Shown: one piece after another, positions 2,893-60,785 of the stretch
Layout of the letters: every line of letters starts with the position of its first letter
Numbering within the stretch: position 1 is the first letter of the stretch
NCBI RefSeq assembly: GCF_937859865.1
Contig: NZ_CALMAT010000024.1
Location: 1 to 64,000 of the forward strand
Source of the DNA: an uncultured Mucilaginibacter sp.
GTDB taxonomy: Bacteria; Bacteroidota; Bacteroidia; Sphingobacteriales; Sphingobacteriaceae
Reading direction: 5' to 3'
Length of the DNA: 64,000 nucleotides
Made by a program: the position numbers and the translations under genes
Notes under the pieces: model-generated
The model's database searches: none
What the model saw: the letters and a program-made list of their open reading frames with translations, nothing else
Told to the model about the DNA's origin: nothing

Positions 2893-3086
2893 GCACCTGT
2901 TTAAGTTTTATCATTGAAATTGATAATGCTTCTTTTATGACTGTAATTTTTGTTTTTACAATCAATACCTATATGAAATTATATAATTTTCAATATTTTA
3001 GGTGATAAAAGAAGCATCGTAAACCGATGATTTTTGTCCGGTAAAAGAAGCATGGAAAATAAACTGATTAAATTTTAAACAGGCTC
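2893..3086. repeat. Palindromic repeat copy 1 (core 2926-3053; right arm present twice)
   Basis: aatgcttcttttatga ... aggtgataaaagaagcat ... ccggtaaaagaagcat; outer arms ttagcacctgtttaag / tttaaacaggctcttaa. Confidence 0.9.
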
Positions 3087-3123
3087 TTAACTATGAAACG
3101 TTATTAAATAACATGTTCCAATT

Positions 3124-4332
3124 TTATTGCGCCATAGATTTGAGCCAGGGCAGGGCATCAAGCATCATCGGCCCAACGCTGGTTTCATGCGTACCACCAG
3201 GAATGGGCGTTAATGTTAATTGCTTAGAACCTGCCGCAATAAACTTGTTGTAAGTCGTTTGCGAAGTCTCAAAGAACACCGCTTCGTCTGCTGTTCCGTG
3301 ATACATGCGGGTAGGGCTAACCGGGTACCAGTCCGGGAAACTGTTCAAAGCAATTTTTGCTTTAAAAGCGGTTTCTCCCGTAGGGCTACTTAAATTGTTA
3401 TAGAAAGCCGTGTTTAATAATGCAGCAGGCGAAGTGTTCAGTTGCGGGTTGATCTGTGCATTGGTTTTGGTACCATCAAGCAGTCCGGGTATTTTGGCCG
3501 CATAAACCGGCATGAAATAATCCGTATACGGGCGGTTAAAGCCGTAAGTGATATTATAAGACCGGATGAACAAGGCAAAGAAAGAAGGGTCCGGGTAAGT
3601 AGTTACCGTTGCAACTTTAGCTACCATGCCCGCCAAATCATAGCCGCCTGCTCCCTCGGCTGCTGCTGTAAGCGTTAATTTATGTGCTTTATTGGTTTCT
3701 ATCTCTTTTTGCGCTGCCATGGTAACGTACCCGCCTTCAGAATATCCCAGTAAAAACAGCTTGTCATTAACGGCCTTGTTTTGTGACTGCAAGTAGTATT
3801 TACCCGCTTTAATCATATCCACAACTGCTAAGCCGGAAGACTGCATATCATAATAAGGATGCGCAATATCCTTGGAAATGCCGTAACCAATAAAGTCAGG
3901 AACCAGGGTCACGAAGCCCGTTGAGGCAAACAGCTCAAAGCCGGTAAACCCGATCGGGAAATTAGAAGGCGCATCTGAATTCCGGAACATCGTTCCGTGT
4001 TGGGCGCTCAGTAAAGCAGGCGTAGTAGTCATTTTTTTAGGAATGCCTAATAAACCTGATGCCTGCACCGTGTTCCCGTTGTAGGTCGTATTATAGATGA
4101 TTTTATAATAATCTACATCGTACTGTAGAAGAGGAGCATAATTTCCAAACCCGTTTAGTGCGGCAGCAGCCTGCAACTCAAGCTTGGTAAAGCTTCCGGC
4201 AGGTGTAGCGGAAACAAAAAAATTCTTCCCATCCGATAGGTCAGGAATCTTATTAGTCACATCTTTTTTACATCCTGCAAACGAAAATAGGCACAACAGT
4301 AAATAGCTTATAGCTTTAAAAGAGTTTTTCAT
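3124..4332 (-). CDS. Secreted lipoprotein alpha/beta hydrolase (secretory lipase-like)
   Basis: GYSEGGY nucleophile elbow, lipobox-like LFSFAGCKK; likely start MKNSFKAIS at 4332 rather than the track start 4419. Confidence 0.8.
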   Translation of the reverse strand: MKNSFKAISYLLLCLFSFAGCKKDVTNKIPDLSDGKNFFVSATPAGSFTKLELQAAAALNGFGNYAPLLQYDVDYYKIIYNTTYNGNTVQASGLLGIPKKMTTTPALLSAQHGTMFRNSDAPSNFPIGFTGFELFASTGFVTLVPDFIGYGISKDIAHPYYDMQSSGLAVVDMIKAGKYYLQSQNKAVNDKLFLLGYSEGGYVTMAAQKEIETNKAHKLTLTAAAEGAGGYDLAGMVAKVATVTTYPDPSFFALFIRSYNITYGFNRPYTDYFMPVYAAKIPGLLDGTKTNAQINPQLNTSPAALLNTAFYNNLSSPTGETAFKAKIALNSFPDWYPVSPTRMYHGTADEAVFFETSQTTYNKFIAAGSKQLTLTPIPGGTHETSVGPMMLDALPWLKSMAQ

Positions 4333-4381
4333 GCTTTTGAATTCTAAAAATTTAATATAATCATTAGTTGATAATTTAGAC

Positions 4382-4840
4382 TTAATATAAGGAGTTGTGG
4401 TAAACTGTTTTTTGCTCATAAAACGTTGGTGTAACAGCTTTGTTGATTAGAATTTTTTTGTGTTTATCCAGTAACTTTTTCCACCAAAAGCGATGCCGTC
4501 TTGGATAAATGATCTGTTCTGAATGATCTGATTTCTTAAGATTTTCTAAACTGAGTAGCTTGTGCATTACTTTCCTGGAATGATCTACTACCTGATGGGA
4601 AATTAATGAATAACCATATTTCAGATTCAAAACCCTGTTGGTTTGGTGGGTCAGGAGAATCTGCTCAAAAATTTCCAGGTGCAGCGTTGAGAACCCTTTC
4701 GTTTTCAGCAACGGTTTTGTACTTTTTTTCTCTAAAATATCAGGTGGTCTATTTATTTGTTGCTTCATGTTGCAAGGCATAAAATGATTTCTACTGGATA
4801 CTGCTTTTACCAGGGATATTATAAAGGATCGAAAAGTCAT
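4382..4840 (-). CDS. Hypothetical protein
   Basis: ORF only; start uncertain (possibly internal MKQQINRPP). Confidence 0.3.
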   Translation of the reverse strand: MTFRSFIISLVKAVSSRNHFMPCNMKQQINRPPDILEKKSTKPLLKTKGFSTLHLEIFEQILLTHQTNRVLNLKYGYSLISHQVVDHSRKVMHKLLSLENLKKSDHSEQIIYPRRHRFWWKKLLDKHKKILINKAVTPTFYEQKTVYHNSLY

Positions 4841-5546
4841 TACTGCCCCGGTTCAAATTATTGGTTGTACCGGCATTAAAGCTGTAGCAATACCCTAAAC
4901 GAAGGTTGTTTTTTTTGGATATATTGTACTGAACCATTGGTCGAAGGATTGACTGGTACAGGTAGTCCCGGCTAGCCGTATTAGAGGTGAAATAGGAAAT
5001 GTTTTGCCGGAAAGAAGCTCCCAGGGAAAGGGAATGCATCATCTCGAACATGGCACTAAACTCAATTGCAGTTAGTCCTCCGAAAGACTTCATCAGCAGC
5101 AGGGACGATTTGAGGTTAACGTTGCTCGGAAAATCTACATTGGCTCCGGCGATCGCGTACATGATGATTTTGCGAAACATCTGCGGTACGTTGTTCTCGT
5201 AATCATTCCTTGTGGTATAAACCGATAACAGGTTGTCAAAGGAAAGCCCGGCGTAGTATTTGGATTTGTAAAGCATTCGCAGGCCTGCATGGGCATCGGC
5301 CTTAGAACTGTAAACGTTGTTGGAGGATACTGGGTCGTTCGGGGTAACGGTCTGCAGGTTCAGCAGATCAATATTAAACTGCTGAAAGCCCAAACCTACA
5401 CCTGATGAAAGCGTAAGGTCTTGCGAGAGGTCGAGGTGGTAAGCATAGTTTGCATTGGCTACGGTATAGGCATCGTTACCAAAACGGTTCCTCACAAAGT
5501 TGAACCCATAAGCTGATTTATTATTTGGAAACAGGCCATCGATCAA
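4791..5546 (-). pseudogene. PorP/SprF-like type IX secretion outer-membrane protein, probably 5'-truncated
   Basis: Beta-barrel pattern GVGLGFQQ...SKADAHAGLRMLYKSKYYAGLSFDNLL; no signal peptide or typical N-terminal region; frame closes inside the adjacent palindromic repeat. Confidence 0.65.
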
Positions 5547-5594
5547 AGAATTATATAGCTTGTTGTAAAAGCTTAAAAAGTTTATCGTTTCTGC

Positions 5595-5688
5595 ATGCTT
5601 CTTTTACCGCCTAAAATTTTGTAATCAGTTGTATCTGTTCTACAAGCATTAATTTTATAAACGAATTTTAATGGCATAAAAGAAGCAT
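5595..5688. repeat. Palindromic repeat copy 2
   Basis: atgcttcttttaccgcctaaaatttt ... aattttaatggcataaaagaagcat. Confidence 0.9.
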
Positions 5689-5803
5689 CAGTAATTATCA
5701 GCTGCAATTAATTAGAGCCCGAGATTAAGAAAATTTCTTTAAAGATATTCTAGCAGGAATAATTAGCTTAGCAAAGCAATCCAAAATGAATTTGTAAGAA
5801 CAA

Positions 5804-8863: not shown

Positions 8864-9209
8864 AAGTCAAATGCTTTTGTTAACAGTAAACATTGAGTTA
8901 AGAAATTAAAATTAAGGATATCAATTATTGCTAACTAAGTTGAATGGTTTTGGGTCAATAGGAACTTTTATGAGTAGGTAGAATTATATTTATACCTTTC
9001 CATAATTCGGCGGAATTTTGATAAAATATTTTATCACTAACCTTCCTTTTCTGATAATTTTCGCAAATTTATCTGTTTGGTTTTAAGGAGGGGTTACACC
9101 TGATTGTAGAGGTAGTATCGGAGAATATTAATCAATTTCTACTTTTTCAATTGATTAAAGTTTCGATATATGGGTAGAAACAATAGACGTTCTGTCAGAA
9201 AGCAGTCAT

Positions 9210-11575: not shown

Positions 11576-11606
11576 GTAAAAATACGGAAATTTTCCGTAT
11601 TTTTAC
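11576..11606. promoter_or_regulatory. Perfect 15-bp inverted repeat with 1-nt spacer upstream of the TA operon (candidate operator)
   Basis: gtaaaaatacggaaa t tttccgtatttttac, 18 bp before the ATG at 11624. Confidence 0.75.
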
Positions 11607-11623
11607 ATAAATTATTTAATTAT

Positions 11624-12420: not shown

Positions 12421-12474
12421 TTCAATCTAATAATATTCTATACCATCGGTGAAAGGCCTGCCTCGTTGTTTCAT

Positions 12475-12722: not shown

Positions 12723-13729
12723 ACCTGAGTTCGCTTAATCAGAAAGCTACAATTTGGTTAGATGGGGTTGTTTGATAAGAAATAGAAGGCTTTTTGGGAA
12801 GGAAAGATAGGCTATCAGGCCGGCAACCATATTGGAGATAAAATTGGCAAAGGACCTATGCCTTGAATGTTCAAGTTGGCAAATGTTCTTCAGTTCATCG
12901 TTTACAGTTTCAATGACTGACCTTTTGCGCAGCAATATTTTGTCGCCCATTGTCATCAGGCTGTTCTTCATGTTGTTGCAGATGTTGGTGACCAGGTGTA
13001 TGTCGTTGACAAACAATAAGTTTGTCAATTTTTCTGATATGTAGCCCTTGTCGGCAAACAGCTTGCCGAACACCGCTTTAAGAAAGCTTTCGTTTTTAAG
13101 TGGCTCCCTGTCGTCGACATTGGCCTGTGTAACGGCGAAGTTTAATATTTCGCCCCGGTCGTTGATCACGATATGCAGCTTAAAGCCATAAAACCAGCCC
13201 ATTGTCGACTTGCCCACTTCTGCCATACCTTTAAATACTTTGTTCCTTTTGATGCGCTTGTTGTGGCATACCCTGATCGGCGTGGAATCAACAAATGAAA
13301 TGCCCGAACATAAGCCTAAGCGGCAGGTCTTAAGGAAAATGGCCATTGGCATCAGTACGCCCCCACTAAGTTCGACAAACCGGTTATAAGATACCGTATG
13401 GGGGAATCCGCCCTGCATGTGCCTTTGTACATAAAACATATAGAAGTGTTTGAAGCAACGAAAGCCACTTAGGTGGAAAAGCATACAAATGGAAATAACC
13501 TCGCTTTTTGACATGGTTGGGGGACGTTTCGAAGGCCTGCCCAGGACAAAGGGTCCGGTAGTGTTGTCAAAATCTTTACAAAACTCATCAACAAGACAGA
13601 AAATATCGCTAATTTTATTGAAGTCAATCATGTGGAAATGTATTTAAATGTTTAAATGTCAGATACTTAAATATACTTACATTTCTAATGATTGACAAAT
13701 CTTTTCTCAATTATTAATCGAACTCAGGT
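12723..13729 (-). mobile_element. IS982-family insertion sequence (about 1.0 kb)
   Basis: Terminal inverted repeats acctgagttcgcttaat (12723-12739) and attaatcgaactcaggt (13713-13729) enclosing one transposase ORF. Confidence 0.88.
12747..13631 (-). CDS. IS982-family transposase
   Basis: Full-length 294 aa; FVDSTPIRVCHNKRI, GWFYGFKLHIVINDRGEI, FADKGYIS, RKRSVIETVNDELKNICQLEHSRHRS. Confidence 0.92.
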   Translation of the reverse strand: MIDFNKISDIFCLVDEFCKDFDNTTGPFVLGRPSKRPPTMSKSEVISICMLFHLSGFRCFKHFYMFYVQRHMQGGFPHTVSYNRFVELSGGVLMPMAIFLKTCRLGLCSGISFVDSTPIRVCHNKRIKRNKVFKGMAEVGKSTMGWFYGFKLHIVINDRGEILNFAVTQANVDDREPLKNESFLKAVFGKLFADKGYISEKLTNLLFVNDIHLVTNICNNMKNSLMTMGDKILLRKRSVIETVNDELKNICQLEHSRHRSFANFISNMVAGLIAYLSFPKSLLFLIKQPHLTKL

Positions 13730-17017: not shown

Positions 17018-17077
17018 TGCCACAAATTCTTATTTCAGGCTACATCTATGGTTCATTTGGCTGCCCGGTTAAAGTGC

Positions 17078-17198
17078 ATGCTTCTTTTACCACATAAAAA
17101 TCATTGCCTTTTTGTGCCTGTAAAATATCTGCATACACCAAATTTACAGGCATAAAAGAAGCATTGTAAAATTTTATGATATAAATTTAAACAAAGGC
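17078..17198. repeat. Palindromic repeat copy 3 (core 17078-17164)
   Basis: atgcttcttttaccacataaaaa ... aatttacaggcataaaagaagcat; outer right arm aaatttaaacaaaggc. Confidence 0.9.
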
Positions 17199-18656: not shown

Positions 18657-18707
18657 AATTTTAAAACAATCGTTTATTTAAATATTGATCCAGCTTAATT
18701 TTATTTA

Positions 18708-18862
18708 GGGCCTGTTTAAATCTGTCCGGCTATTTCCCATGCTTCTTTTACCACCTAAAAATCATTGCCTTTTTTGGTTTTTGTGCCAAATAATGCCCCA
18801 CACAAAATTTATAGGCATAAAAGAAGCATCGTTATTTTTTCTTGTCTAAATCTAAACGGCGC
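18708..18862. repeat. Palindromic repeat copy 4 (core 18739-18829)
   Basis: ttagggcctgtttaaat ... atgcttcttttaccacctaaaaat ... ataggcataaaagaagcat ... ctaaacggcgctta. Confidence 0.92.
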
Positions 18863-20275
18863 TTATTCTTTGGATATAACTTGTTGTGTGTTTTTTCCTG
18901 CAATGAATTTTATATCCTTGGCAAATTCTATTTGAAAATCTCCGTCGTTAATGCCGGAAAGGGGTTTCCCTGCTAAAAAACAATGGTCAAAAGTTATGTC
19001 TTCAATCAGGTTGGTAGGGATCCCGGCGATGACAAATGGCTTGTTTGCATTCGCCCAACGGATGTTTTTTAAATAAACTCCTTTGATATTGCCGGGCCCG
19101 GCAGTTCCATATCTTCTACCCTCGGTTACAATCAGTTCAAGGTTTTTGTATTCAATTTGATTTTCGATCCGGATATCTTCAAAACGAATATTTTGGACCA
19201 AAGAAGGGCCATCACAAACAATACTGAACCCGGAATGCCCTCCTGTTCTGCCCTGGCCGTTTGCAGAAATAATATCACAATTTTTTACCAAAACGTTTTG
19301 CACTAAACCTCCCTGTAGTTCAAACCCTAAAGTAACGCCATCAGCGTGCGCCCAGCCCACCAGCAAACAATTGGTTACCGTTATAGAATCTGTATTGATG
19401 TTTTTAACGGTATCGCTACCAAACCTGCCCATGGATTTGATCGAAATACAATCATCCCGGGTACGGATAAAACAATAGTTGATCTTAAAATCTTTGCAGG
19501 AAACGGGGTCAATGCCATCAATCCCCCAAACGCCTTTATAACTAAAAACCTTTACATTGTTGTAAACAGTATGCTCACAATCAATAAGCGTATTGCTCCA
19601 GTTAGAAGTATTACGGATGAAAACACCGCTAACATCAATATTGGAACTACCGTAAATCCGAACGTTTCCGTTGAGAATTCCTCTTCCCTCAATTTTAACG
19701 TTCTTAAGGTTTTTACCCCTAACATTGGCATTTACAACCGCCCCTCCGGCTATGTAAACCGTTTGGCCACTCTTTAAATTAATTTCACCCTCGTTATGGG
19801 TTCCTGCGCCAAAATACAAAACTCCGGGATCTCCGTTTTTAGGGATATGTGTTTCTAATGGGTTTGCAAAAATGGCTAAAGCAGGCAGGCCATCAATTTC
19901 AATATACAATTTTTGAGGGCCCGAAATGGTAAAGTTAAGTTCGCGCCCGTTTACCTTTGCTTGAATTGCCCGGCTTGCCGGCCCGATTTTATACTTGCTG
20001 ATTTTGGAAGATGCAACAACCGTAATTGCCTGCGGCCCGGAACAAGAAAAATTGGCCACGTGTAGGTTTTCCATGCCGCCGCTGCCTATCTGTTCGGTCC
20101 AAACCGGACTATTGTTTACCCTGACAGTAAAGTTTGCACTGGTTTGCAGGCCATCAGGTTTTGGATAGGTAACAAGTGTGCTTTTGGTGCTTGGCGGTGC
20201 GGCAAACAAACCTGGTTTCAGCGAAAATAAAACCAAAAAAAGGCTGATGGTTATGCGTATAGCTGTTTTAGACAT
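18863..20275 (-). CDS. Right-handed beta-helix glycoside hydrolase (GH28/GH49-like, clan GH-N)
   Basis: Beta-helix pattern GRGILNGNVRIYGSSNIDVSGVFIRNTSNW...GIDGIDPVSCKDFKINYCFIRTRDDCISIKS; signal peptide. Confidence 0.75.
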   Translation of the reverse strand: MSKTAIRITISLFLVLFSLKPGLFAAPPSTKSTLVTYPKPDGLQTSANFTVRVNNSPVWTEQIGSGGMENLHVANFSCSGPQAITVVASSKISKYKIGPASRAIQAKVNGRELNFTISGPQKLYIEIDGLPALAIFANPLETHIPKNGDPGVLYFGAGTHNEGEINLKSGQTVYIAGGAVVNANVRGKNLKNVKIEGRGILNGNVRIYGSSNIDVSGVFIRNTSNWSNTLIDCEHTVYNNVKVFSYKGVWGIDGIDPVSCKDFKINYCFIRTRDDCISIKSMGRFGSDTVKNINTDSITVTNCLLVGWAHADGVTLGFELQGGLVQNVLVKNCDIISANGQGRTGGHSGFSIVCDGPSLVQNIRFEDIRIENQIEYKNLELIVTEGRRYGTAGPGNIKGVYLKNIRWANANKPFVIAGIPTNLIEDITFDHCFLAGKPLSGINDGDFQIEFAKDIKFIAGKNTQQVISKE

Positions 20276-20327
20276 ATTTTCAAAAATCGTTGTTAAAGTG
20301 GCTGTTTTATTTATCCTAAAAAAGGCA

Positions 20328-20419
20328 ATGCTTCTTTTATCCCTATAAATTTGGTATTGCCTTGATTTGAAACAAAAGGAATACCCGGACCAATGATTTT
20401 TATAGGATAAAAGAAGTAT
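20328..20419. repeat. Palindromic repeat copy 5
   Basis: atgcttcttttatccctataaattt ... gatttttataggataaaagaagtat. Confidence 0.88.
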
Positions 20420-20431
20420 CGAAAAAAATCC

Positions 20432-20452
20432 GTAACAGGCCCAGCCTGTTAC
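20432..20452 (-). terminator. Hairpin, terminator-like for the minus-strand gene 20480-21460
   Basis: gtaacaggc cca gcctgttac followed on the minus strand by ggatttttttc. Confidence 0.65.
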
Positions 20453-23978: not shown

Positions 23979-24026
23979 AATGAAATGATTGATAGAACGC
24001 ATTAAAAATCTGTTCTGCTTATTTCG

Positions 24027-24124
24027 ATGCTTCTTTTACCACCTAAAAATTGGTGAAGTGCTGCTTTTGCTTTGTTTAAGCTGGGACAGATCAGATACCA
24101 ATTTTTATAGGGTAAAAGAAGCAT
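24027..24124. repeat. Palindromic repeat copy 6, between susE-like and susD-like genes
   Basis: atgcttcttttaccacctaaaaattggtg ... taccaatttttatagggtaaaagaagcat. Confidence 0.92.
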
Positions 24125-24140
24125 GCTAAGCTTGCAACTG

Positions 24141-25622
24141 TTAATATCCAGGGTTTTGTACCAAAGTTGGGTTAGCGTTAAGTGCAGCAGTTGGTATCGG
24201 GAAAATAAGCCTGTAGGCAGGTGTTGTTTGAACAAAACCATGCGGCAGCAAAAACTTACCAAATCGAATCATATCCTGCCTGCGGTGGCCTTCCATATTC
24301 AGCTCAAAGCCCCTTTCGTCATAAATATTGTCCAAAGTAGGGGTGGCAATAGGGCCTAAACCTGCCCTGTCCCTCACCTGGTTGATAAATGGTGCTGCCG
24401 CCGCGGCGTTCCCTAAACGAACGTTGCACTCTGCCTGCATCAACAACAGGTCGGCATAACGGTAGATAGGGAAATCGTTTGATTCACCGCTGCCATCGGA
24501 TGGCGCAACCGGGAAAAACTTAACATCCCTTACACCTTCATTTGGCCCTGCACCCGGAGAAATGATGGATGATACCGAAGCAGTGTAGGTAACACCACCA
24601 ACTTGCGGACCAACCAAAAATTGTTTTCTCCTGATATCGCTGGCATCATACTTATTATAAAACTCTTCAGGAATAATAGTACCGTTCCAGCCGGAAAAGC
24701 CAATAAGTGCCAAACCATTCGGACCGTTCAGGCTCCTGATGGCATAGATGTTACCGCTAACAATATTTTGGGTGATGTATTCAGCCAAAATAGTTTCATC
24801 ATTGGGGCAAGTGTTTCCAAACAGCTCATAGTACTGGTATCCCAACGGACTGCTTGAATTAGCAGCTCCAGGATGCAAGGAAAAGCCACCGGATGCTACT
24901 TTATTACAAGCGGCTAAAGCATCTGCCCAATCAGGTGTACCAGTATAAACCCCGGCATTTAAATAAACTTTTGCCAGTACCATGTAGCCAGCCCATTTAT
25001 TAAAGCGGCCATAATAAGTACCACCTCTTGTTTCAGAAAGCAAATCAACATTGGCTTTAAGTTCCGATACTATAAAATTGTAAATTGTTGCCCTTTTTGC
25101 CTGCGGGATTTTAGAAACATCCGTATTGTTGTCTGTATAAAAAGGCACATCACCAAAATCATCTATCAATAAATAATATAACCAGGCGCGGGCAACTTTC
25201 GCTTCCGCAATTTTGGAAGGGTCAGCTTTTGCTGTTGTGAGCGTTGCTATTGCCAGGTTTGCACTATAAATAGAAGAATACGCCCAGTTCCAAGTATTGT
25301 TGATAATGCCAAGGCTGGGTAATGCTGTATGGGTGTACAGTTGTGCAAAGTCAAGCTGCCAGTCGCCTGTATTGCGGTGCGGTATCACCTGCTCGTCTGA
25401 TGAAAAAGAGTTAAGGTCATACCAGCAGTTGTCGCGGCCGGCGTAATTCGAACCCCAGGAACCTGTGATTTTTGCATACACATTGGCTAAGGCGTTATCA
25501 GCACCTATCGGCGTTGCAAAAAATTGTTGAGCAGGATATTTGTCATACACATTTTCATTAACCTTGGTACAACTTTGTGCAGCAAGGCCAACAATAAAAA
25601 TACTGATGAATATTTTTTTCAT
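24141..25622 (-). CDS. RagB/SusD family nutrient-binding lipoprotein
   Basis: DNALANVYAKI..., ARAWLYYLLIDDFGDVPFYT, RYADLLLMQAECNVRLGN, DERGFELNMEGHRRQDMIRFGKF. Confidence 0.94.
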   Translation of the reverse strand: MKKIFISIFIVGLAAQSCTKVNENVYDKYPAQQFFATPIGADNALANVYAKITGSWGSNYAGRDNCWYDLNSFSSDEQVIPHRNTGDWQLDFAQLYTHTALPSLGIINNTWNWAYSSIYSANLAIATLTTAKADPSKIAEAKVARAWLYYLLIDDFGDVPFYTDNNTDVSKIPQAKRATIYNFIVSELKANVDLLSETRGGTYYGRFNKWAGYMVLAKVYLNAGVYTGTPDWADALAACNKVASGGFSLHPGAANSSSPLGYQYYELFGNTCPNDETILAEYITQNIVSGNIYAIRSLNGPNGLALIGFSGWNGTIIPEEFYNKYDASDIRRKQFLVGPQVGGVTYTASVSSIISPGAGPNEGVRDVKFFPVAPSDGSGESNDFPIYRYADLLLMQAECNVRLGNAAAAAPFINQVRDRAGLGPIATPTLDNIYDERGFELNMEGHRRQDMIRFGKFLLPHGFVQTTPAYRLIFPIPTAALNANPTLVQNPGY

Positions 25623-34518: not shown

Positions 34519-34682
34519 GAGCCTTTTTAAATTTTATTTGTATAAAAATCACAATGCTTCTTTTAGCATTATAAAATTGGTGCTTATAACGTACCTCCAT
34601 AAAAAGCGAATCATATCTGACTGTTTTTTAGGCGATAAAAGAAGCATAGAAAAATAAATTAGCAAAAATTTAAACAGGTGCT
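34519..34682. repeat. Palindromic repeat copy 7 (core 34554-34647)
   Basis: ttagagcctttttaaattt ... aatgcttcttttagcattataaaattggtg ... tttttaggcgataaaagaagcat ... aaatttaaacaggtgcttaa. Confidence 0.92.
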
Positions 34683-40677: not shown

Positions 40678-40914
40678 TTACAGGCTGAGGTGGAAATACA
40701 ATTGTTCGCGGGTTAAATGGTACTCCTGGCAAAGCTGGTACACGTTTAAGTGCTCTACCCCGTACTTACTGCAATAATGCGAAAGCTCCAAGCGGTAAGT
40801 GGTTTCGCATCGCTGTGTAAGCATATGCAGGTGCTGCCAGGTAATAGTAAAAGAAGCATTCGCATTTTGGGAATGATTGTGGTAACATTTAAAATCAGCC
40901 CCAAAAACATACAA
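40678..40914 (-). CDS. Hypothetical small protein
   Basis: 78-aa ORF followed by a terminator; contains a half palindromic-repeat arm (reads NASFTIT). Confidence 0.4.
   Translation of the reverse strand: MYVFGADFKCYHNHSQNANASFTITWQHLHMLTQRCETTYRLELSHYCSKYGVEHLNVYQLCQEYHLTREQLYFHLSL
40844..40860. repeat. Half copy of the palindromic repeat (right arm only)
   Basis: tagtaaaagaagcatt. Confidence 0.6.
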
Positions 40915-42740: not shown

Positions 42741-42907
42741 AGGGCTTGTTTAAATTTGTACCGGAAAAAATTACAATGCTTCTTTTACCCTATAAATTTT
42801 GGTGTTTTAATCGTCCTAATCAAATCGAAAAACCAAACACTTGTCAATTTTTAGGCGATAAAAGAAGCATTAGAAACCTTGATAATCAGATTTAAAAAAA
42901 AGTCCTT
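42741..42907. repeat. Palindromic repeat copy 9 (core 42776-42870)
   Basis: agggcttgtttaaatttg ... aatgcttcttttaccctataaattttggtg ... caatttttaggcgataaaagaagcat ... agatttaaaaaaaagtcctta. Confidence 0.93.
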
Positions 42908-43269: not shown

Positions 43270-43457
43270 CCAACTTTAGTGGCAGCATGTTTTCGTTCAA
43301 AGTTTTATCACCCAAAATGTTGCCGCCGTTTTCCCAGCCTTCCGGCTTTTGGCTTTTTGATATTGCAGTTCGATATGCGGGTAGTGGTTTGCTGGTAATG
43401 CCATCTGTGGAGGTACAATTTGTAATGCGGATCTTGTTTACTTGTTGCTTATTTTCG

Positions 43458-43559
43458 ATGCTTCTTTTACCGCATAAAATTGGTAAAGCTTTTGGTTGAT
43501 GGTTCATTGGTGATAGCATATCAGATATGGTCACCAAATTTACAGGCATAAAAGAAGCA
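43458..43559. repeat. Palindromic repeat copy 10
   Basis: atgcttcttttaccgcataaaattggtaaag ... caaatttacaggcataaaagaagca. Confidence 0.9.
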
Positions 43560-43613
43560 CAATGATTATTAAACGTGTTACATTTATAACCTGTTAACCT
43601 TAACATAACCGTT

Positions 43614-45728: not shown

Positions 45729-45762
45729 AATGCTTCTTTTATCATGCAAAAATTAGTAAAGA
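45729..45762. repeat. Half copy of the palindromic repeat (left arm only), contains start codon of downstream gene
   Basis: aatgcttcttttatcATGcaaaaattagtaaag aligned to copy 10 left arm aatgcttcttttaccgcataaaattggtaaag (copy 10 has c/gatgctt). Confidence 0.75.
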
Positions 45763-46872: not shown

Positions 46873-46918
46873 AATTGGTATAGCAAATTGCGCAAAGGTA
46901 AGCGGCAAAGTTATTGGC

Positions 46919-47044
46919 CACGCTTCTTTTAGCACATAAAAATTGGTGTTGTGCAGCAACCTGAAAAATCAAAAAACGGATGCCACCAACTTTTAGGCGG
47001 TAAAAGAAGCATGAAAACTATTTAGGTAAATTTGAAACAAGCCG
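46919..47044. repeat. Palindromic repeat copy 12 (core 46921-47012)
   Basis: cgcttcttttagcacataaaaattggtg ... caacttttaggcggtaaaagaagcat; outer right arm aaatttgaaacaagccg. Confidence 0.9.
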
Positions 47045-48697
47045 TTCAGTTTGTACTTGGGTTTTTGCCAGGATTTCTTCGGCGGCCATTCGTCCGGTTT
47101 CCGCTGCGCCGTTCATGTAGCCCTGGAAGTTAAGGCTGCAATGTTCTCCGGCAAAGTGCAGGTTGCCAATGGCTTTTCTTTCCGCCCCGCGGATACTGGT
47201 ATATTGCCCAACTTTATAGCAAGAATAACTGCCAAGCGTAAAAGGGTAAGTTGGCCAGTGCATCCTTTTTACATTGCCGTTAAATGCCTTTTTACAGCCT
47301 GGCCACATTTGTTCTAACTGGTCAACAAATTTTGGTGCCTGGGATTCCGGCGTTCCGTTTCCCAATTGTAAGCCTTCGTTTCCGCCTTGAAATACCGTAT
47401 AACCGCCGTTTTTACCAGGTTGTGCCTGGCTATTGTCCCATCCGGTTTGGATGGCATTGTTGGTAAAGGCGTAACCGCTGTATTGATATTTGCGCCACAC
47501 CCTGCTGTCAAAACCCAGCAACAGTTTTGAATTGGTGCCATACCCTACGTTTTTTATCGCCTCTAATTTCCATTTTGGCAAGGACACATCCAGTTCAATG
47601 TTTCTTAAAACACTAAAAGGGACAGTACAAACCACGACATCGGCATTGACCGTTGTTACCGAATTATTTGTATTTAAAAAATACAAGGTGTAGCCTGTTG
47701 TGGCCTGTTTTATTTTTACCAGCACATTTTCCGTGTAAACCTGGTCTTTAACCTGGGCGTAAAGTTTATTGGTTAAAGTTTGGTTTCCGCCTGCAATTTT
47801 GTAACGCTCGTCGCTTTCGCCAAAAATTTCAAACCCGTTGGAAGTATCAGGATTAAACAGGAATAAAAAATTGATAGCAGATTGTACGTCTGTCTCCAGT
47901 CCGTATTCGGTTAAGTAAGCCACTTCTATCCCTTTGCGGATAAACCCGGTCATGCCGATAGCATCCAAATATTCTTTGATACTCATCCGGTCAAAACGCT
48001 TCGAGGCGGCATCATTGTCGTCATAAGTGATTTCATCGGGCAACGAATTTATATCGGCATCAATCCTGGAAGCATAAGGCAAAAACGCTTTGATCACTTC
48101 TTTTTCAGCATAAAACCTTCCGTCTATAAAAAAGCTGTCCCTTGCAAATTTTTCCTCTGTTGCAGAACGGGTATCTAATAAAGAAAGGCCAAACTCGCTG
48201 CACAGTTGAAGCATGTCTTCATGCCCCGAATCAATAAATTCCCCGCCCAATTCCGTGTAAATATCCGGTGCCAAGATATTGCTTTTAGAAAAAATTCTGC
48301 CGCCAACCCGTTTTGAACCTTCGTAAACAGTGGCAAAACGGCCTGCCTTTTTCAGTTGGTACGCACAGTTTAAACCCGCCATGCCTGCGCCTATAATTAC
48401 AGTTTTAGGCTGACATTGACTCTGGCTAAGGTTTGCCGAAAAATTTGGCAGTGGGACGGCAGGCGTTACCTCAACCGCTTTTTTGCAGGCACTTAAAAGG
48501 CCTGCGGCACTGATTGCAACGCCTGTTTTCATCAGGTCGGCAATAAACTTTCTGCGTTGCAGCCTGCTTTGTACCAGTCCTTCAATCAGGTCATCAACGG
48601 GCGCGCTATTGGTTTTTTGAGATTCTTTGGCAATAAAAAAAGCTTTGCGCAAGGCATTGAGCAAAGACGTGCGGTTTTGTTTTTTAAAATTATTCAT
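47018..48697 (-). CDS. Flavin monoamine oxidase family protein
   Basis: TVIIGAGMAGLNCAYQLKKAG FAD motif, VGGRIFS, C-terminal LHFAGEHCSLNFQGYMNGAAETGRMAAEEI. Confidence 0.92.
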   Translation of the reverse strand: MNNFKKQNRTSLLNALRKAFFIAKESQKTNSAPVDDLIEGLVQSRLQRRKFIADLMKTGVAISAAGLLSACKKAVEVTPAVPLPNFSANLSQSQCQPKTVIIGAGMAGLNCAYQLKKAGRFATVYEGSKRVGGRIFSKSNILAPDIYTELGGEFIDSGHEDMLQLCSEFGLSLLDTRSATEEKFARDSFFIDGRFYAEKEVIKAFLPYASRIDADINSLPDEITYDDNDAASKRFDRMSIKEYLDAIGMTGFIRKGIEVAYLTEYGLETDVQSAINFLFLFNPDTSNGFEIFGESDERYKIAGGNQTLTNKLYAQVKDQVYTENVLVKIKQATTGYTLYFLNTNNSVTTVNADVVVCTVPFSVLRNIELDVSLPKWKLEAIKNVGYGTNSKLLLGFDSRVWRKYQYSGYAFTNNAIQTGWDNSQAQPGKNGGYTVFQGGNEGLQLGNGTPESQAPKFVDQLEQMWPGCKKAFNGNVKRMHWPTYPFTLGSYSCYKVGQYTSIRGAERKAIGNLHFAGEHCSLNFQGYMNGAAETGRMAAEEILAKTQVQTERLVSNLPK

Positions 48698-48779
48698 AAC
48701 GGTTTTTTGTTGTTTCGGTTTTAGGGCTTGATAGACGGCAACTTATACTGCTTTTTAAGGAAATAAGGTTACGGTTATG

Positions 48780-48870
48780 ATGCTTCTTTTACGGCATAAA
48801 AATCAGTGGGCAGCTTTTTTTTAAGGAGATGAAAGGCCGGACACTCATTTTTTAGTGCTAAAAGAAGCAT
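48780..48870. repeat. Palindromic repeat copy 13
   Basis: atgcttcttttacggcataaaaatcagtg ... cactcattttttagtgctaaaagaagcat. Confidence 0.9.
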
Positions 48871-49041
48871 GCAATTTTCAGGGATTAACTTCTGAACAAG
48901 TTTTATAATTAAAATGTTATCATCTTTACACTATAGAAAAACAGGTTTTGTTTACTTGGCAAACTATCAATTCCAGTTGATTTTGCACATCAGGTATAAA
49001 CATATTACCTTTAATAAACCAATATAACCACTTTTTGCAAG

Positions 49042-49623
49042 GTGAACAAAGATTTTGTTAATATCAGCGATATTCTTAGTTTAATGGCAGGAGATGAGCC
49101 TGCTTTTGCCGCTGTTTATAAGTGGTATGCGGAGAAGGTTTACCGTCTTGCCTTTAGGTTTTTAAAAAATCAGGCACAGAGCGAAGAAATTGTGCAGGAA
49201 ACGTTTATAAAACTTTGGCTTACCAAAGGCCAATTGAAACCGCAAGGCAATTTATGGCTGTACCTGTTTGTAATTGCCAAGCGCCTGTCTATAAATACAC
49301 TTCGCCAACACAACCAATCTGCTCATACCTTTGAACAACTTGCTGACCGGATGGCAGAAATCCAAAATGTAACCGAAGAACAGGTGATAGCGCACGACCT
49401 GGAACAGTTTACCGAGAAAATACTGCAAAAATTACCTAAGCAACAGCAGCAGGTTTTTAAAATGAGCCGTAGAGAGGGCTTAACTCACAAGGAAATTGCA
49501 GAGCGGCTGCATATTTCACCTAATACCGTAAAAAACCATATGGTAGAAGCGTTAAAAACTTTAAAATCTTATTTAAGATATGCCGATTTTATTTGTTTGA
49601 TTTTTTTGCATCTCTATAAATAA
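49042..49623 (+). CDS. ECF-type RNA polymerase sigma factor (GTG start)
   Basis: Sigma-70 r2 FRFLKNQAQSEEIVQETFIKLWL, r4 REGLTHKEIAERLHISPNTVKNHMVEALKTLK. Confidence 0.94.
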   Translation: MNKDFVNISDILSLMAGDEPAFAAVYKWYAEKVYRLAFRFLKNQAQSEEIVQETFIKLWLTKGQLKPQGNLWLYLFVIAKRLSINTLRQHNQSAHTFEQLADRMAEIQNVTEEQVIAHDLEQFTEKILQKLPKQQQQVFKMSRREGLTHKEIAERLHISPNTVKNHMVEALKTLKSYLRYADFICLIFLHLYK

Positions 49624-49775
49624 GAGTTTGTTTAAATTTTGTTCAACTTATTTCCCATGCTTCTTTTATCACCTAAAAATTATCAAGTCCCATACTTTTG
49701 TATCATTATAAAAACAGAATTTATAGGCATAAAAGAAGCATTATGAATTTTCCTGATTTAAATTTAAGCAAGCCA
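49624..49775. repeat. Palindromic repeat copy 14 (core 49657-49741)
   Basis: taagagtttgtttaaatttt ... atgcttcttttatcacctaaaaat ... tttataggcataaaagaagcat ... aaatttaagcaagcc. Confidence 0.92.
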
Positions 49776-51142: not shown

Positions 51143-51224
51143 TAATGTGGCCCGGAGGCCCTCAGTTGGGCAACCGTAACTTTTTGCAGCTATACAACCA
51201 ATTACTAATTAACCTAACATTCAA

Positions 51225-54200: not shown

Positions 54201-54614
54201 CTGGTAGAACCTTTCCATTACAACTATGGCAACACCTTGTTCGAAAACCAAACCGACTTTTGGTCACCTTCCAATCCGGGAGCTAAATATCCTCGCCTTG
54301 CGGTAATTGGTTCTGACTCTAATACCAACAACTGGCGTGATGGATCGGATATTTATAGTTTTAATGCTGCTTATGCAAGGCTAAAAAATGTAAATATCGG
54401 TTATACGCTGCCCTCTGCCTTAACCAAACGGGTAGGCATTCAAAAACTGAGAATATCTTTAAGCGGCCAAAACCTGTACACTTTAACTAAACTAAAATTT
54501 ATAGACCCCGAAAACACTGAGTTTAACAATAATGTAAGCTTTACCAGCTCTAATAGCGGCCGCAGCTATCCGCTGCCTGTATTTTATGGAGCAGGTTTAG
54601 ATATAACTTTTTAG
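51225..54614 (+). CDS. SusC/RagA TonB-linked outer-membrane protein with STN domain
   Basis: STN-like VTFSFKQAKLKEVFGKIQAQTNYDILY, VVVVGYGTQNRLSLTGAVDQV, LKDAGAAAIYGSRAANGVILVTTK. Confidence 0.95.
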   Translation: MYKNFTAFIIGKQPRCLYKPLLIMKLIMILLTATALQVAAATYAQEVTFSFKQAKLKEVFGKIQAQTNYDILYKAEDLKLAKLVTVNLTNMPLRQALDICLSKQPLTYSIENTTILITRKPVLTEGKIAAVIPIRGRVTDTIGQPLPGVTILEKNTHNAAVTDANGNFSITVANENAILQLSFIGFVTQEIPVTGRTSFDIRLRESKTVLNEVVVVGYGTQNRLSLTGAVDQVTSKDIENKPVLNPLQALQGESPNLIIQQTNFEPGSGANINIRGVSTTGDNSPLIVIDGIIGGNIQTLNPNDIASVSVLKDAGAAAIYGSRAANGVILVTTKGGKLNQAPTITFNSSYGIQHADVLLHKVNGWDNAYYKNESLVNSGLPPAYTPDQIAQLQAQGNGTWDVNHVLHNAPLLSENVAITGGGPTSSYFISGGYQNQLSNIIGNGGSGSNYGYDKYNLRMNQTTNIGKLRVNMILSYNRNESKYNTAGDNNIFADANRVPYNYSWQDAQGRYLTNQVASEFNVLNTVQNGGYNLSTGDEFFGSLNAQFNVTKDIKLTGIIGATITDAGTFIRRIQVYDYPSGTSNSDRAVFNNNLNNLFLTPQFLAEYNKQIQDHKFRVLLGVSNESYTSKVSQVQQLYTDPQLGTPTTGTTLDPSNSYNTISNTLETSLDSFFGRVNYSFKDRYFIEGNFREDWSSKFAAGHRAAFFPSVAGSWLISEESFMKSVANTINTLKFRASYGTLGNQNVNAYQYQTRYSSYPNAYAFNNSAVSGAGYALGNSNLTWEKATTLNLGVDAGFFNNKLVASVDYFNKTTSNILAGRTDIPALFGAGLPNYNISKVGNKGWEAIVTYNLRSNSSVTQSFSLNVANNSNKLLALSYGSNQQIQGLGEYSLLRQVGQPITQYYGYKIAGIFQTTAEVQGSAKPSGLNLAPGDLKYVDQNKDGVIDQKDMVPLGNPFPQYTFGFTYRLAVKGFDLSVFVQGVGKRTEFIRGELVEPFHYNYGNTLFENQTDFWSPSNPGAKYPRLAVIGSDSNTNNWRDGSDIYSFNAAYARLKNVNIGYTLPSALTKRVGIQKLRISLSGQNLYTLTKLKFIDPENTEFNNNVSFTSSNSGRSYPLPVFYGAGLDITF

Positions 54615-54800
54615 GATCCCTTTAAATTTGTATTAAAAAATAACAATGCTTCTTTTACCACATAAAAATTTGTGTTTGTAGCCTCACCCCAACCCTCACC
54701 AACAGGAGAGGGAGCTGTAGAAAACATAGAAAGCCTCACTGATTTTTATATGGTAAAAGAAGCATCAAAAATATGCTGAACAAAATTTAAACCTGTTCTT
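54614..54800. repeat. Palindromic repeat copy 15 (core 54646-54765), loop carries a second inserted repeat
   Basis: ttaggatccctttaaatttg ... aatgcttcttttaccacataaaaatt ... gatttttatatggtaaaagaagcat ... aaatttaaacctgttctt. Confidence 0.92.
54681..54739. repeat. Nested short GC-rich repeat inside copy 15 loop
   Basis: gcctcaccccaaccctcaccaacaggagagggagctgtag...gcctcac; resembles dispersed ccctcacccc..ggagaggg repeats. Confidence 0.6.
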
Positions 54801-54820
54801 GATCATTAAAAAATATCAAA

Positions 54821-56464: not shown

Positions 56465-56492
56465 TTTACCGATTAAAAATTTTTGAAATAAA

Positions 56493-57626: not shown

Positions 57627-57632
57627 TCATTT

Positions 57633-57663
57633 AACGGGTTGCTGCTATAGGTAGCAACCCGTT
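57633..57663 (+). terminator. Terminator-like hairpin after susE-like gene
   Basis: aacgggttgct gctatagg tagcaacccgtt. Confidence 0.7.
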
Positions 57664-57679
57664 AACTTTAATTCGATTT

Positions 57680-57839
57680 TAGGGCCTGTTTAAATTTGGT
57701 TTAACCTATTTTCATGCTTCTTTTATCCCATTAAAACCTTGACCTTCTTATCCTTTTTAAAAATGAATGGTGCATAGCACTAATTTTTATAGGGTAAAAG
57801 AAGCATTGTCATTTTTTCAAACATAAATTTAAACAGGCT
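57680..57839. repeat. Palindromic repeat copy 16 (core 57714-57805), ends 3-4 nt before the GH76 start codon
   Basis: ttagggcctgtttaaatttgg ... atgcttcttttatcccattaaaa ... aatttttatagggtaaaagaagcatt ... aaatttaaacaggc. Confidence 0.94.
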
Positions 57840-57842
57840 TTT

Positions 57843-59024: not shown

Positions 59025-59123
59025 ATTTCATTTTCACCCAAATTCCTGTCACAATTGTTTGTTTTCGATTAAAGCTGTTCGGTGCTTTTTAATTTTGGTA
59101 TTCTTCAAAATCATATTTGCTTT

Positions 59124-59303
59124 AAGGGCTGTTAAAATTTATACAAGGCTCTTTGGCATTCTCGGGTTTGATGCCAATGCTTCTTTTACACTATAAAAAT
59201 TGGTGCCTGCATCAATTTAAATAAAATCAAAAACCAAATATGTACCAATTTTTAGGTGGTAAAAGAAGTATTTAAACCCAATTGGGTAAATTTAAAAAGG
59301 CAC
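59124..59303. repeat. Palindromic repeat copy 17 (core 59177-59271)
   Basis: ttaagggctgttaaaattt ... aatgcttcttttacactataaaaattggtg ... taccaatttttaggtggtaaaagaagtat ... aaatttaaaaaggcac. Confidence 0.93.
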
Positions 59304-59310
59304 TTGTTGG

Positions 59311-59391
59311 GATGCTTCTTTTACGGTGTAAAAATCATTGGGTTTCCTTTTTTAAATTGATGAAACACCAATTTTTTAGCTTGCATTAATT
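59311..59391. repeat. Palindromic repeat copy 18, right arm partly deleted
   Basis: gatgcttcttttacggtgtaaaaatcattggg ... acaccaattttttagcttgcatt, compare copy 13. Confidence 0.7.
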
Positions 59392-59421
59392 AGGTTAATG
59401 CTGATCCTGATCAAATTGTGG

Positions 59422-59907
59422 CTAAGCCTTTTTGCCCAATGTCCATCCTTTTCGGATAGTTGGGGCAGATTTCGGGCCTGCAATCAAAGCATCTGTAATG
59501 GCGCCGGTTACAAAAGCATAAATCCCTTTATGGATTAAATCAATAGCTTGTTCATCTTTCGGCCAGGTCCAGGGCAAAGAACCGGCACCGGTTGCATTTT
59601 CCAGCGTTTGGTCGTTTAGTAAACGCAGGTTCATAAACAGGAACGAACCTACCGGGCCCCTGATCCCTTTTTCTGCCATCAAACCTCTGACTGCGCCCAG
59701 CAAAATCCCTTGCCCCCAGTGCATCGCCCAGTTCATTGCCTCATTATCGAGTTTGGTGGGAAGGCCAAGCAAGCGTTCTAAAGTATGGGCAGGCATATAA
59801 GAGTTTGGCCTTTTCGTAATCAATTGTTCCAGTTTTTCTGCCACGGTCATTGCGGCAACACCAGCTATTCCTGCTAAAACCCCTTGTAATGCTGCTTTAC
59901 TGTTCAT
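59422..59907 (-). CDS. Hypothetical protein with hydrophobic N-terminal segment
   Basis: ORF MNSKAALQGVLAGIAGVAAMTVAEKLEQLITKRPNSYMPAHTLERLLGLP..., good codon usage; no confident family. Confidence 0.6.
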   Translation of the reverse strand: MNSKAALQGVLAGIAGVAAMTVAEKLEQLITKRPNSYMPAHTLERLLGLPTKLDNEAMNWAMHWGQGILLGAVRGLMAEKGIRGPVGSFLFMNLRLLNDQTLENATGAGSLPWTWPKDEQAIDLIHKGIYAFVTGAITDALIAGPKSAPTIRKGWTLGKKA

Positions 59908-60049
59908 GGTTTTTTATCGTTTGAGTTAATATTTAACTACAGGTTTGGTGGGTTTTTGTTTATAACCATAACGTATTTTATTGATTTGTTATTTAGCAAT
60001 AGGGAATTTAAAAGGCAAAAAATTTTTACTTGTTTACCAACCCATAGTA

Positions 60050-60082
60050 AACTTGCCAATTTTTAGGTGGTAAAAGAAGCAT
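60050..60082. repeat. Half copy of the palindromic repeat (right arm)
   Basis: aacttgccaatttttaggtggtaaaagaagcat. Confidence 0.8.
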
Positions 60083-60264
60083 CGGAAACCAACAAATATT
60101 TATACAACCTCAACATCGCGTAAGCAAAAATTGATAAAACTTTAATTGCCGCCCGGCCGTATGCCGAAGAGTGAAAACGCCGGCGCAATGCTTTAAAACT
60201 TTTTGCACGATAATTATTTAAACCCGGCATTGCATTAAGAGGAAAAGGAAACAATCCATAAAAA

Positions 60265-60660
60265 ATGTATTTTTTAATTTATACCAGTTATGCTTTGCAG
60301 ACAAATGGGCAAGCTTTAAAAGCATTGTTGCAGCAAGCGCGCGAAAAGAACAAAAGACAGGCTGTTACCGGGATGCTGCTTTATCTGAACGGTATATTTA
60401 TCCAACTGATTGAAGGCGGACAAAAAGAGGTGCAGCAATTGTACCAAACCATCCGTAAAGACAACCGGCATAAAGAGGCCGTTGTTTTAAAGGAAGGCGC
60501 GATAGAAAAGCGTTATTTTACCGATTGGTCTATGGGTTTTAAAGCTGTTTCTGCAGAAGAACTGGCGCACGAGGAAGGCTATAAATGCCTGAATGGCCCG
60601 GGCCAGCCGGATATACAATCGGTACTTAAAGTTTTTGAATTGTTGGCTCCGGTAAATTAA
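60265..60660 (+). CDS. BLUF-domain blue-light photoreceptor
   Basis: IYTSYALQTNGQALKALLQQAREKNKRQAVTGMLLYLNGIFIQLIEGGQKEVQQLYQTIRKDNRHKEAVVL, DWSMGFK. Confidence 0.9.
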   Translation: MYFLIYTSYALQTNGQALKALLQQAREKNKRQAVTGMLLYLNGIFIQLIEGGQKEVQQLYQTIRKDNRHKEAVVLKEGAIEKRYFTDWSMGFKAVSAEELAHEEGYKCLNGPGQPDIQSVLKVFELLAPVN

Positions 60661-60688
60661 ATTCACCGTTGCGCAACTTGATGGAAAC

Positions 60689-60720
60689 AAAAATGGAGGA
60701 ATTTATTCTTCCATTTTTGT
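60689..60720 (+). terminator. Terminator after BLUF gene
   Basis: caaaaatggaggaa tttat tcttccatttttgttt. Confidence 0.75.
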
Positions 60721-60752
60721 TTTAGGTGGTTTTTTGGTTTTATTTAAACTGA

Positions 60753-60785
60753 TGCCACACCAAATTTTACCTGGTAAAAGAAGCA
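60753..60785. repeat. Half copy of the palindromic repeat (right arm)
   Basis: ccacaccaaattttacctggtaaaagaagcat. Confidence 0.75.

Follow-up and report, generated by a model that had tools for sequence, protein, structure and literature searches.

An IS5-derived MITE and a dispersed candidate DNA uptake motif in Mucilaginibacter

DNA uptake that recognizes self has been established in only two families, the Pasteurellaceae and the Neisseriaceae (PMC7811141). Haemophilus influenzae has about 1,465 perfect 9-bp cores of its uptake sequence (USS), or 2,206 sites if these are counted by a motif model (PMC7811141), and both Haemophilus and Neisseria (whose uptake sequence is called DUS) possess terminator-type hairpins formed by such sequences (PMC1852404), a shape shared by the short-loop motif pairs described below. 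In the Bacteroidota, natural competence is possible without pili, and the competence studied there is pilus-less (PMC8459023); Riemerella columbina shows a preference for self DNA (PMC7965970, PMC8459023). A k-mer search in Riemerella, limited to words of 10 bp and shorter, returned only A-rich words, whose function was left open (PMC7965970). Apart from that remark, I found in the literature no established uptake sequence in the phylum, nor any uptake experiments with the species considered here.

The repeat at issue was encountered in a 64-kb window (the whole stretch of DNA analyzed) of the genome of a soil Mucilaginibacter. Two layers are superimposed in it: a MITE derived from an IS5-family insertion sequence, and a dispersed motif. 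I consider it moderately probable that this motif is of the uptake type and that the MITE captured it as a pair. The motif resembles the USS of H. influenzae and other Pasteurellaceae in its conserved core with a downstream tract of only A/T, in its number (1,479 14-mers here), in its occurrence on both strands and in both coding and intergenic DNA, and in the inverted pairs at the ends of genes. It differs in that its core is unrelated and its host belongs to a different phylum, that one A/T tract is clear and a second is not, that its intergenic bias is stronger than in Haemophilus, that no PilB/PilT-type ATPase accompanies it in the genomes searched (see below), and that its role in uptake is putative.

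With the DUS of Neisseriaceae it shares the character of a dispersed, lineage-restricted ~12-mer with variant forms, found in inverted pairs and often between genes, though again the sequences are unrelated. In Neisseria a type IV pilin reads the DUS, while a receptor other than a pilus would be needed here. The Correia elements of Neisseria (CREE or NEMIS) are likewise intergenic MITEs of ~150 bp and high copy number, and dispersed uptake sequences occur in the same genomes. Their insertion target is TA, however, their features include a promoter, IHF sites and RNase III sites, and the descriptions consulted mention no uptake sequences inside them. Competence in Riemerella (Flavobacteriia) is similar in being pilus-less, in the same phylum and, in R. 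columbina, accompanied by a preference for self DNA, and dissimilar in that the k-mer search there gave no motif like the present one.

A MITE and its IS5-family parent

The 15-mer of the inner arm, AATGCTTCTTTTACC, has 45 matches in the window when up to three mismatches are allowed, against 4.5 expected (100 shuffles, maximum 10). When opposite arms are paired, exactly 15 copies with two arms result (Table 1), the number reported in a preliminary description of the window, and the overlap with predicted genes is zero for all 15, in agreement with its claim that no open reading frame lies inside. The outer inverted arms that it reported also hold up, with 25 matches to GRGCCTGTTTAAATTTG in the window against 7.3 expected; they are well preserved in part of the copies only (2893-3086, 34519-34681 and 57682-57840 by a strict two-sided test) and degraded in others. 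Across the genome there are 224 exact arm pairs. Exact pairs were used for genome-wide counts; looser pairing (two mismatches per arm) placed some pairs inside genes, where single coding motifs had probably been paired by chance.

Table 1. MITE copies and unpaired motifs in the 64-kb window.
Feature	Coordinates	Strand	Details
MITE copy	2893..3086	-	both TIRs, flanks TTA/TTA; right arm duplicated, extra motif 3040-3053; passes strict two-sided outer-arm test
MITE copy	5555..5719	+	both motif arms retained, TIRs decayed
MITE copy	17044..17198	+	left TIR lost
MITE copy	18707..18863	+	both TIRs recognizable
MITE copy	20298..20443	-	decayed TIRs
MITE copy	23994..24155	+	decayed TIRs
MITE copy	34519..34682	-	both TIRs, TSD TTA/TTA; passes strict two-sided outer-arm test
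Single dispersed motif (unpaired arm)	40846..40859	-	intergenic
MITE copy	42742..42904	-	one good TIR
MITE copy	43429..43595	+	decayed TIRs
Single dispersed motif (unpaired arm)	45730..45743	+	immediately 5' of ATG of ORF at 45744
MITE copy	46884..47045	-	decayed TIRs
MITE copy	48747..48904	-	decayed TIRs
MITE copy	49623..49775	+	TSD TAA/TAA, both TIRs recognizable
MITE copy	54614..54799	-	loop longer, core 120 nt
MITE copy, best preserved of window	57681..57841	+	both TIRs, TSD TTA/TTA; passes strict two-sided outer-arm test
MITE copy	59145..59304	-	
Single dispersed motif (unpaired arm)	59312..59325	+	adjoins MITE; possible deletion derivative
Single dispersed motif (unpaired arm)	60069..60082	-	with AT tract
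Single dispersed motif (unpaired arm)	60773..60786	-	with AT tract
Dispersed motif, variant form ATACTGTTTTTACC	62036..62049	+	within ORF 60909-63992
Exact dispersed motif, coding (unpaired arm)	63329..63342	+	within minus-strand ORF 60909-63992 (1,027 aa)
Dispersed motif, variant form ATACTGTTTTTACC	63736..63749	+	within ORF 60909-63992

The repeat is a MITE, a non-autonomous and non-coding derivative of an IS5-family insertion sequence, about 160 bp in length (range ~150-165 bp) and bounded by the terminal inverted repeat (TIR) GAGCCTGTTTAAATTTTGTTCAAT. Its 3-bp TTA/TAA flanks are identical in 27 of 60 cases, as compared to 12.7 expected (10,000 permutations, maximum 23). Since nucleotide synteny between the whole window and the sister genomes was swamped by matches to the MITE itself, empty sites were sought on individual contigs. 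One is precise: M. arboris has AATTAAA[element]AAAGAAAAG where the sister MAG has AATTAAAGAAAAG. Further empty orthologous sites in sister species correspond to four copies of the window genome (L023, L049, L056 and L063).

A transposase gene bounded by the same ends occurs in another genus of the same family, within an intact IS of 887 bp (L270) that has a TTA/TTA target duplication and an open frame of 261 aa. The encoded transposase scores 192 bits with NF033580 (transpos_IS5_3, IS5-family; cut-off 110) and also matches DDE_Tnp_1 and DUF4096. The end of the MITE and the right end of this IS are identical over 24 nt, and GAGCCTGTTTAAATTTTGTTCAAT is common to both. Thus the preliminary "MITE-like" reading is borne out by TIRs, target duplication, empty sites and a parent with identical ends. 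The MITE resembles IS5-family insertion sequences and their MITEs in these terminal 24 nt, in the 3-bp duplication and in the lack of an open reading frame, and differs in that its interior is not derived from the IS and carries two inverted uptake-like motifs. The transposase of the IS recognizes the GAGCCTGTTTAAATTTTGTTCAAT ends and inserts the element at TTA/TAA, duplicating those 3 bp.

Each of the three genomes from the genus contains decayed relatives of the 887-bp IS, and the copies in the sister genomes are either decayed or more distant. In the window genome, the search for an active transposase gave no more than an N-terminal relic interrupted by a stop; the assembly is a draft of 177 contigs, and an IS that had collapsed at the end of a contig might have escaped the search. 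Other candidates for the parent were rejected. The window's own DDE transposase (12747-13631) is IS982-like and has different ends; an IS elsewhere in the same genome (C174) has a related but not identical TIR, GAGGTTGTTTAAAC; and an IS of M. arboris (L075; TIR GAAACTGTTTAAATTTTG, TTA duplication) is close and was superseded by the IS with exact ends.

A palindromic, intergenic repeat of high copy number might also be a REP or BIME mobilized by a RAYT (Y1 HUH) transposase, as had been suggested. To our knowledge, HUH elements make no target duplication. The DDE-type TIRs, the 3-bp duplication and a DDE parent of the IS5 family that shares these ends effectively refute this suggestion.

The motif outside the MITE

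Each inner arm of the MITE is one instance of a dispersed DNA motif, RATGCTTCTTTTAYCR-N3-WWWWWWT, with core forms ATRCT[TC/GT]TTTTA. That the inner arms constitute a separate motif, with some 1,500 instances per genome and most of them outside the element, had been overlooked in the preliminary description. The 14-mer motif is found 1,479 times in the window genome (745 and 734 on the two strands), 1,357 times in Mucilaginibacter arboris and 711 times in the MAG from a lichen. All three genomes of the genus carry hundreds of copies or more, as compared to 0-4 copies in each of 298 other genomes of the family. A control with the motif reversed gave 0-1 in the genus, and in ten other genera a degenerate form of the motif turns up 0-1 times in every 40 kb. 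On the contigs examined of each genome, the exact 12-mer is observed 240-302 times where 0.6-1.4 would be expected, in each genome more than 190-fold above the Markov-3 expectation, and the most overrepresented 10-mer of all three genomes lies within the motif.

Most copies of the motif are single, and over a third of the single ones fall in coding sequences; the density between genes is about ten times that within them. The motif is depleted in divergent spacers; single copies lie closer to 3' ends and are enriched in convergent spacers, and inverted pairs with short loops are present. An A/T tract at +18..+24 downstream carries position-specific information, coding sequences included, where G or C accounts for no more than about 3% at +19..+21. 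An atypical stretch of ~81 kb with lower GC contains no exact 12-mers.

The position near 3' ends and in convergent spacers and the existence of short-loop pairs are what would be expected if motif pairs acted mainly in RNA, as terminators, mRNA 3'-end hairpins or RNase III sites like those of Correia elements, and the inner cores do fold well (z from -3.7 to -6.6). However, the arms show no covariation. Left and right arms had been said to vary together; in fact, 5 of 27 stem pairs changed on both sides, as compared to 8.1 in shuffles, and RNAalifold finds 12 pairs with zero compensatory changes. A search of Rfam with the repeat gave no match. The large, conserved RNA hairpin proposed earlier was therefore rejected, covariation being no better than in shuffles. 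Considering also that most motifs are unpaired, with over a third of the single copies located in coding sequence, and that such motifs can double as terminators, as has been reported of USS and DUS (PMC1852404), I judge a primary role in RNA improbable.

Within genes, the motif is kept at the level of DNA against codon freedom. Coding motifs are exactly retained in orthologues in 44 of 67 cases (random 12-mers: 10.8%). Where the windows compared between orthologues of M. arboris and the MAG are identical in protein, the motif is identical in 32 of 34, against 18.4% for the control. The peptide [VLI]KEA[SCYFW] is encoded by the exact motif 23 times out of 24, with 1.2 expected.

These coding motifs bear directly on the possibility that there is nothing here beyond an ordinary MITE, whose inner arms would be parts of the transposon (e.g., subterminal transposase-binding sites) and whose decayed half copies would be the single motifs. 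The MITE itself is certain, and intact elements always have both arms: in 18 elements selected by their TIRs alone, arms are present in 36 of 36 positions (32 of them exact), and on the contigs examined every size-matched element with good TIRs carries both. On the examined contigs of the window genome, about a third of the exact 12-mers are in MITE-type pairs. But the lichen MAG has 270 exact 12-mers in 960 kb, of which only 14 are in such pairs, and counts like these cannot come from MITEs; only a small share of the motifs belongs to the MITE in M. arboris and in the MAG. Many single motifs lie at orthologous positions in intact, conserved genes with their codons frozen. Moreover, ATGCTTCTTTTA is absent both from the intact parental IS and from a TIR-bounded, 160-bp element of another genus (L284). 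The coding-sequence data have already refuted the MITE as a full account, and I regard it as highly improbable. The half copies noted earlier likewise exist as unpaired arms (Table 1), but they are mostly single motifs of the genome-wide, dispersed kind, not half elements.

An uptake sequence or a chromosomal site

I infer that the motif is a candidate DNA uptake sequence because its dispersal, its freezing at the DNA level, its A/T tract, its lack of strand bias and its avoidance of divergent spacers match the profile of DUS and USS. Strong DNA-level conservation and an A/T tract would fit any sequence-specific DNA-binding protein, however, and a protein that organizes the chromosome could in principle impose similar conservation. 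The motif might then serve to bind a protein of the nucleoid or of chromosome maintenance (in the manner of Chi, KOPS, Ter or SlmA), with which the intergenic enrichment and the restriction to one genus may also be reconciled. Yet that restriction is odd for chromosome maintenance. Chi and KOPS are shorter than a 14-bp core plus tract. Along 0.96 Mb spanning a switch in GC skew, no replichore strand bias of the motif was seen (heterogeneity p = 0.08). The density of the motif, its form and its absence from the atypical island are better matched by uptake sequences, and a chromosomal site seems to me rather unlikely.

If the motif is an uptake sequence, the transformation machinery would prefer DNA that bears it, and uptake bias together with homologous recombination would accumulate and repair it throughout the genome, as happens with USS in the Pasteurellaceae and DUS in the Neisseriaceae. 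Early on, the MITE would have picked up two such motifs in inverted orientation, and its transposition would spread motif pairs through the genome. Carrying the pair, DNA that contains the MITE would be favored for uptake, which would give the element a route between cells.

In the three genomes of the genus (G000, G002 and G027), no T2SSE (PilB/PilT) ATPase scores above the Pfam cut-off, so the pilus-based receptor of known DUS and USS would be unavailable and another receptor must be assumed. A motif-only search covering well under half of each genome gave no match to ComEC or DprA. The full proposal, that the genus independently evolved a Bacteroidota uptake system with a receptor not of the PilB/PilT type, and with a transposon as a carrier of paired motifs that both seeds the genome and is favored for transfer, is in my estimate an even bet.

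If it is true, the genus would provide a third and independent case of self-recognition, now in the Bacteroidota, against which ideas of how uptake bias creates genome-wide motifs could be tested, and the lack of a PilB/PilT-type ATPase would suggest that DNA is received by a new type of receptor. Cloning the motif into donor DNA would offer a simple route of transformation for bacteria that are difficult to manipulate. With its pair of motifs, the MITE would be a case of a mobile element exploiting the recognition of self DNA, and one concrete way by which uptake sequences spread.

The palindrome as a transposable element

The palindromic element is a MITE. Its full copies, 150–165 bp in length, are bounded by GAGCCTGTTTAAATTT, which with at most one mismatch is present in 66 places in the window genome (control, 0). 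In 27 of 60 copies the left and right flanking triplets agree, mostly as TTA/TTA or TAA/TAA, whereas permutation gives 12.7 (at most 23 in 10,000 rounds). Since these triplets are direct and not inverted, they have the form required of a target duplication. Comparison of two sister genomes, Mucilaginibacter arboris and a lichen MAG (median protein identity 86%), provided a precise empty site: AATTAAA/GGGCCTG...CAGGCCC/AAAGAAAAG in M. arboris vs AATTAAAGAAAAG in the MAG. Empty orthologous sites were also found in one or both sisters for four copies in the window genome (L023, L049, L056, and L063). The element transposes by means of its terminal inverted repeats (TIRs), with a 3-bp duplication.

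The preliminary description counted 15 two-arm copies in the 64-kb window, and this count was confirmed: a covariance model built from 31 copies recovered the same 15. Throughout the window genome (a 3.98-Mb draft of 177 contigs, with the window on contig C24) the model found at least 150 candidates, all with E < 1e-12, and a pattern search found 224 instances of the exact sequence ATGCTTCTTTTA-N55-85-TAAAAGAAGCAT. The same exact pattern occurs 134 and 27 times in the two other genomes of the genus, which are the sisters, and not at all in 198 family genomes from other genera. The reversed pattern, used as a control, did not occur.

A pattern search also found a parent for the MITE: an intact 887-bp IS, flanked by TTA/TTA, in the neighbouring large genus g14 (L270). 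Its 261-aa open frame encodes an IS5-family transposase (NF033580, 192 bits, cut-off 110; also DDE_Tnp_1 and DUF4096). The MITE consensus end is identical over 24 nt to the right end of this IS (GAGCCTGTTTAAATTTTGTTCAATAATAATTTTATA; the left end is GAGCCTGTTTAAAAATAGATAAATAAAATTG). Side A of the MITE's subterminal region matches the right end better than the left, while side B scores equally with both. Relatives of the IS within the genus are decayed: M. arboris has two loci (82–83% identity across 72 C-terminal aa), one of them ending in GGGCCTGTTTAAATTTTGTT; the window genome has an N-terminal fragment containing a stop, and the MAG has a fragment. The search revealed no intact IS of this kind within the genus, where assembly gaps could hide one. 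Other elements encountered are listed in the table.

The inner arms and the dispersed motif

The inner arms of the MITE are something else: each is one copy of a separate motif that is dispersed through the genome. The arms had been described as varying together, but over the whole 27-pair stem covariation is no greater than in shuffles, and the 12 innermost base pairs show no compensatory change. Of 240 exact 12-mers of the arm motif in 454 kb of the window genome, 84 belong to MITE-type pairs; the corresponding figures are 32 of 302 for M. arboris (676 kb) and only 14 of 270 for the MAG (960 kb). A Markov-3 model predicts totals of 0.6–1.4. In the sisters, unpaired 12-mers far outnumber pairs. 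Genome-wide counts of ATGCTTCTTTTAYC are 1,479 for the window genome (745 forward, 734 reverse), 1,357 for M. arboris, and 711 for the MAG, as compared to 0–4 for 298 other family genomes. The most overrepresented 10-mer of all three genus genomes is contained in the motif, and the motif as a degenerate 14-mer appears 17–22 times per 40 kb in the genus vs 0–1 in each of ten other genera.

Single copies, 251 coding and 429 intergenic, were aligned and share one layout: R at −1, the core ATGCTTCTTTTA, Y, C, R, three loose positions, and an A/T tract at +18 to +24, with G or C at no more than about 3% at +19 to +21 in coding copies. Other core forms are abundant in a MAG contig (ATACTTCTTTTA, 111; ATGCTGTTTTTA, 93; ATACTGTTTTTA, 124), the last with flanks as for the main core.

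To avoid circularity, elements of 130–200 bp in the contigs examined were chosen by their TIRs alone. All 36 arms of the 18 elements so chosen were present, 32 of them exact. Neither the parent IS nor a 160-bp element from another genus that shares these ends has the motif. Capture of the motif pair by this MITE lineage is therefore the most likely origin.

Features and their locations (L, examined stretch; G, family genome; C, contig)
Feature	Location	Observation
Second MITE family of the same IS	L284 1501-1660 (G014)	160 bp; same TIRs, other genus, without motif
IS5-like elements	L037/L070 (window genome C174), L076 (G008)	Related TIRs GAGGTTGTTTAAACTT and GAGGTTGTTTAAATTTC
IS982-type transposase gene	Window 12747-13631 (-)	Apparently intact; ends ACCTGAGTTCG / CGAACTCAGGT; unrelated to MITE
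Single motif	Window 45730-45743	Directly precedes ATG of ORF 45744; A/T tract within first codons
Motif-free stretch, ~81 kb	L164-L168 (G027:C1, ~42,000-123,000)	0 exact motifs; lower GC (0.380), unusual gene content
10-mer CTATCAGCTA	L344, L345 (G025)	15 in 40 kb; local repeat in another genus
10-mer CTAAATACTA	L330, L331 (G016)	6 in 40 kb, ~90-fold over expectation; could be another dispersed motif

Constraint on the motif and resemblance to uptake sequences

The dispersed motif is constrained at the level of DNA. Gene pairs of M. arboris and the MAG share 80.6% nucleotide identity; of 67 coding motifs in them, 44 are unchanged in the orthologue, vs 10.8% of random 12-mers. Among motif sites that encode the same amino acids in both genomes, 32 of 34 also agree in DNA, vs 18.4% of control windows. 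The exact motif encodes 23 of the 24 [VLI]KEA[SCYFW] peptides in the MAG, where codon usage predicts 1.2. The motif is therefore neither a leftover of transposition nor kept for the sake of protein.

The constraint is inferred to come from biased DNA uptake; the main rival explanation is that a chromosome-organising protein accounts for it. In a 0.96-Mb contig, single motifs show no strand bias that tracks the GC-skew switch. Divergent spacers are depleted of single motifs, which lie closer to 3' ends, and some motifs form short-loop inverted pairs, e.g., GTGATAAAAGAAGCATCGTTAGCATGCTTCTTTTATCAC. The motif-free stretch of the lichen MAG, with its large ORFs of unusual type, is probably an island of acquired DNA.

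A dispersed motif with such counts, anatomy, constraint, and placement fits the profile expected of DNA uptake sequences. Haemophilus influenzae has about 1,465 perfect USS cores with A/T tracts (PMC7811141), resembling the motif in both respects, and the short-loop pairs within the genus resemble the inverted pairs of uptake sequences reused as terminators (PMC1852404). The main problem for uptake is that no PilB/PilT-type ATPase above cut-off was found in the three genus genomes, and a motif search covering well under half of each genome did not turn up ComEC or DprA. This is less damaging than it appears, because Riemerella, the competent Bacteroidota studied, lacks a pilus and takes up DNA through proteins of unknown type (PMC8459023). 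One species, R. columbina, shows a preference for its own DNA; the authors who reported this searched k-mers of at most 10 bp, obtained only A-rich words, and left the question open (PMC7965970).

The literature searched, incomplete in its coverage, yielded no account of an uptake sequence established for Bacteroidota nor, in what that search reached, of a MITE carrying uptake sequences. I rate the case as a combination of what would be an uptake sequence, known in kind and new as a variant, with an IS5-type MITE, likewise known in kind and new as a member.
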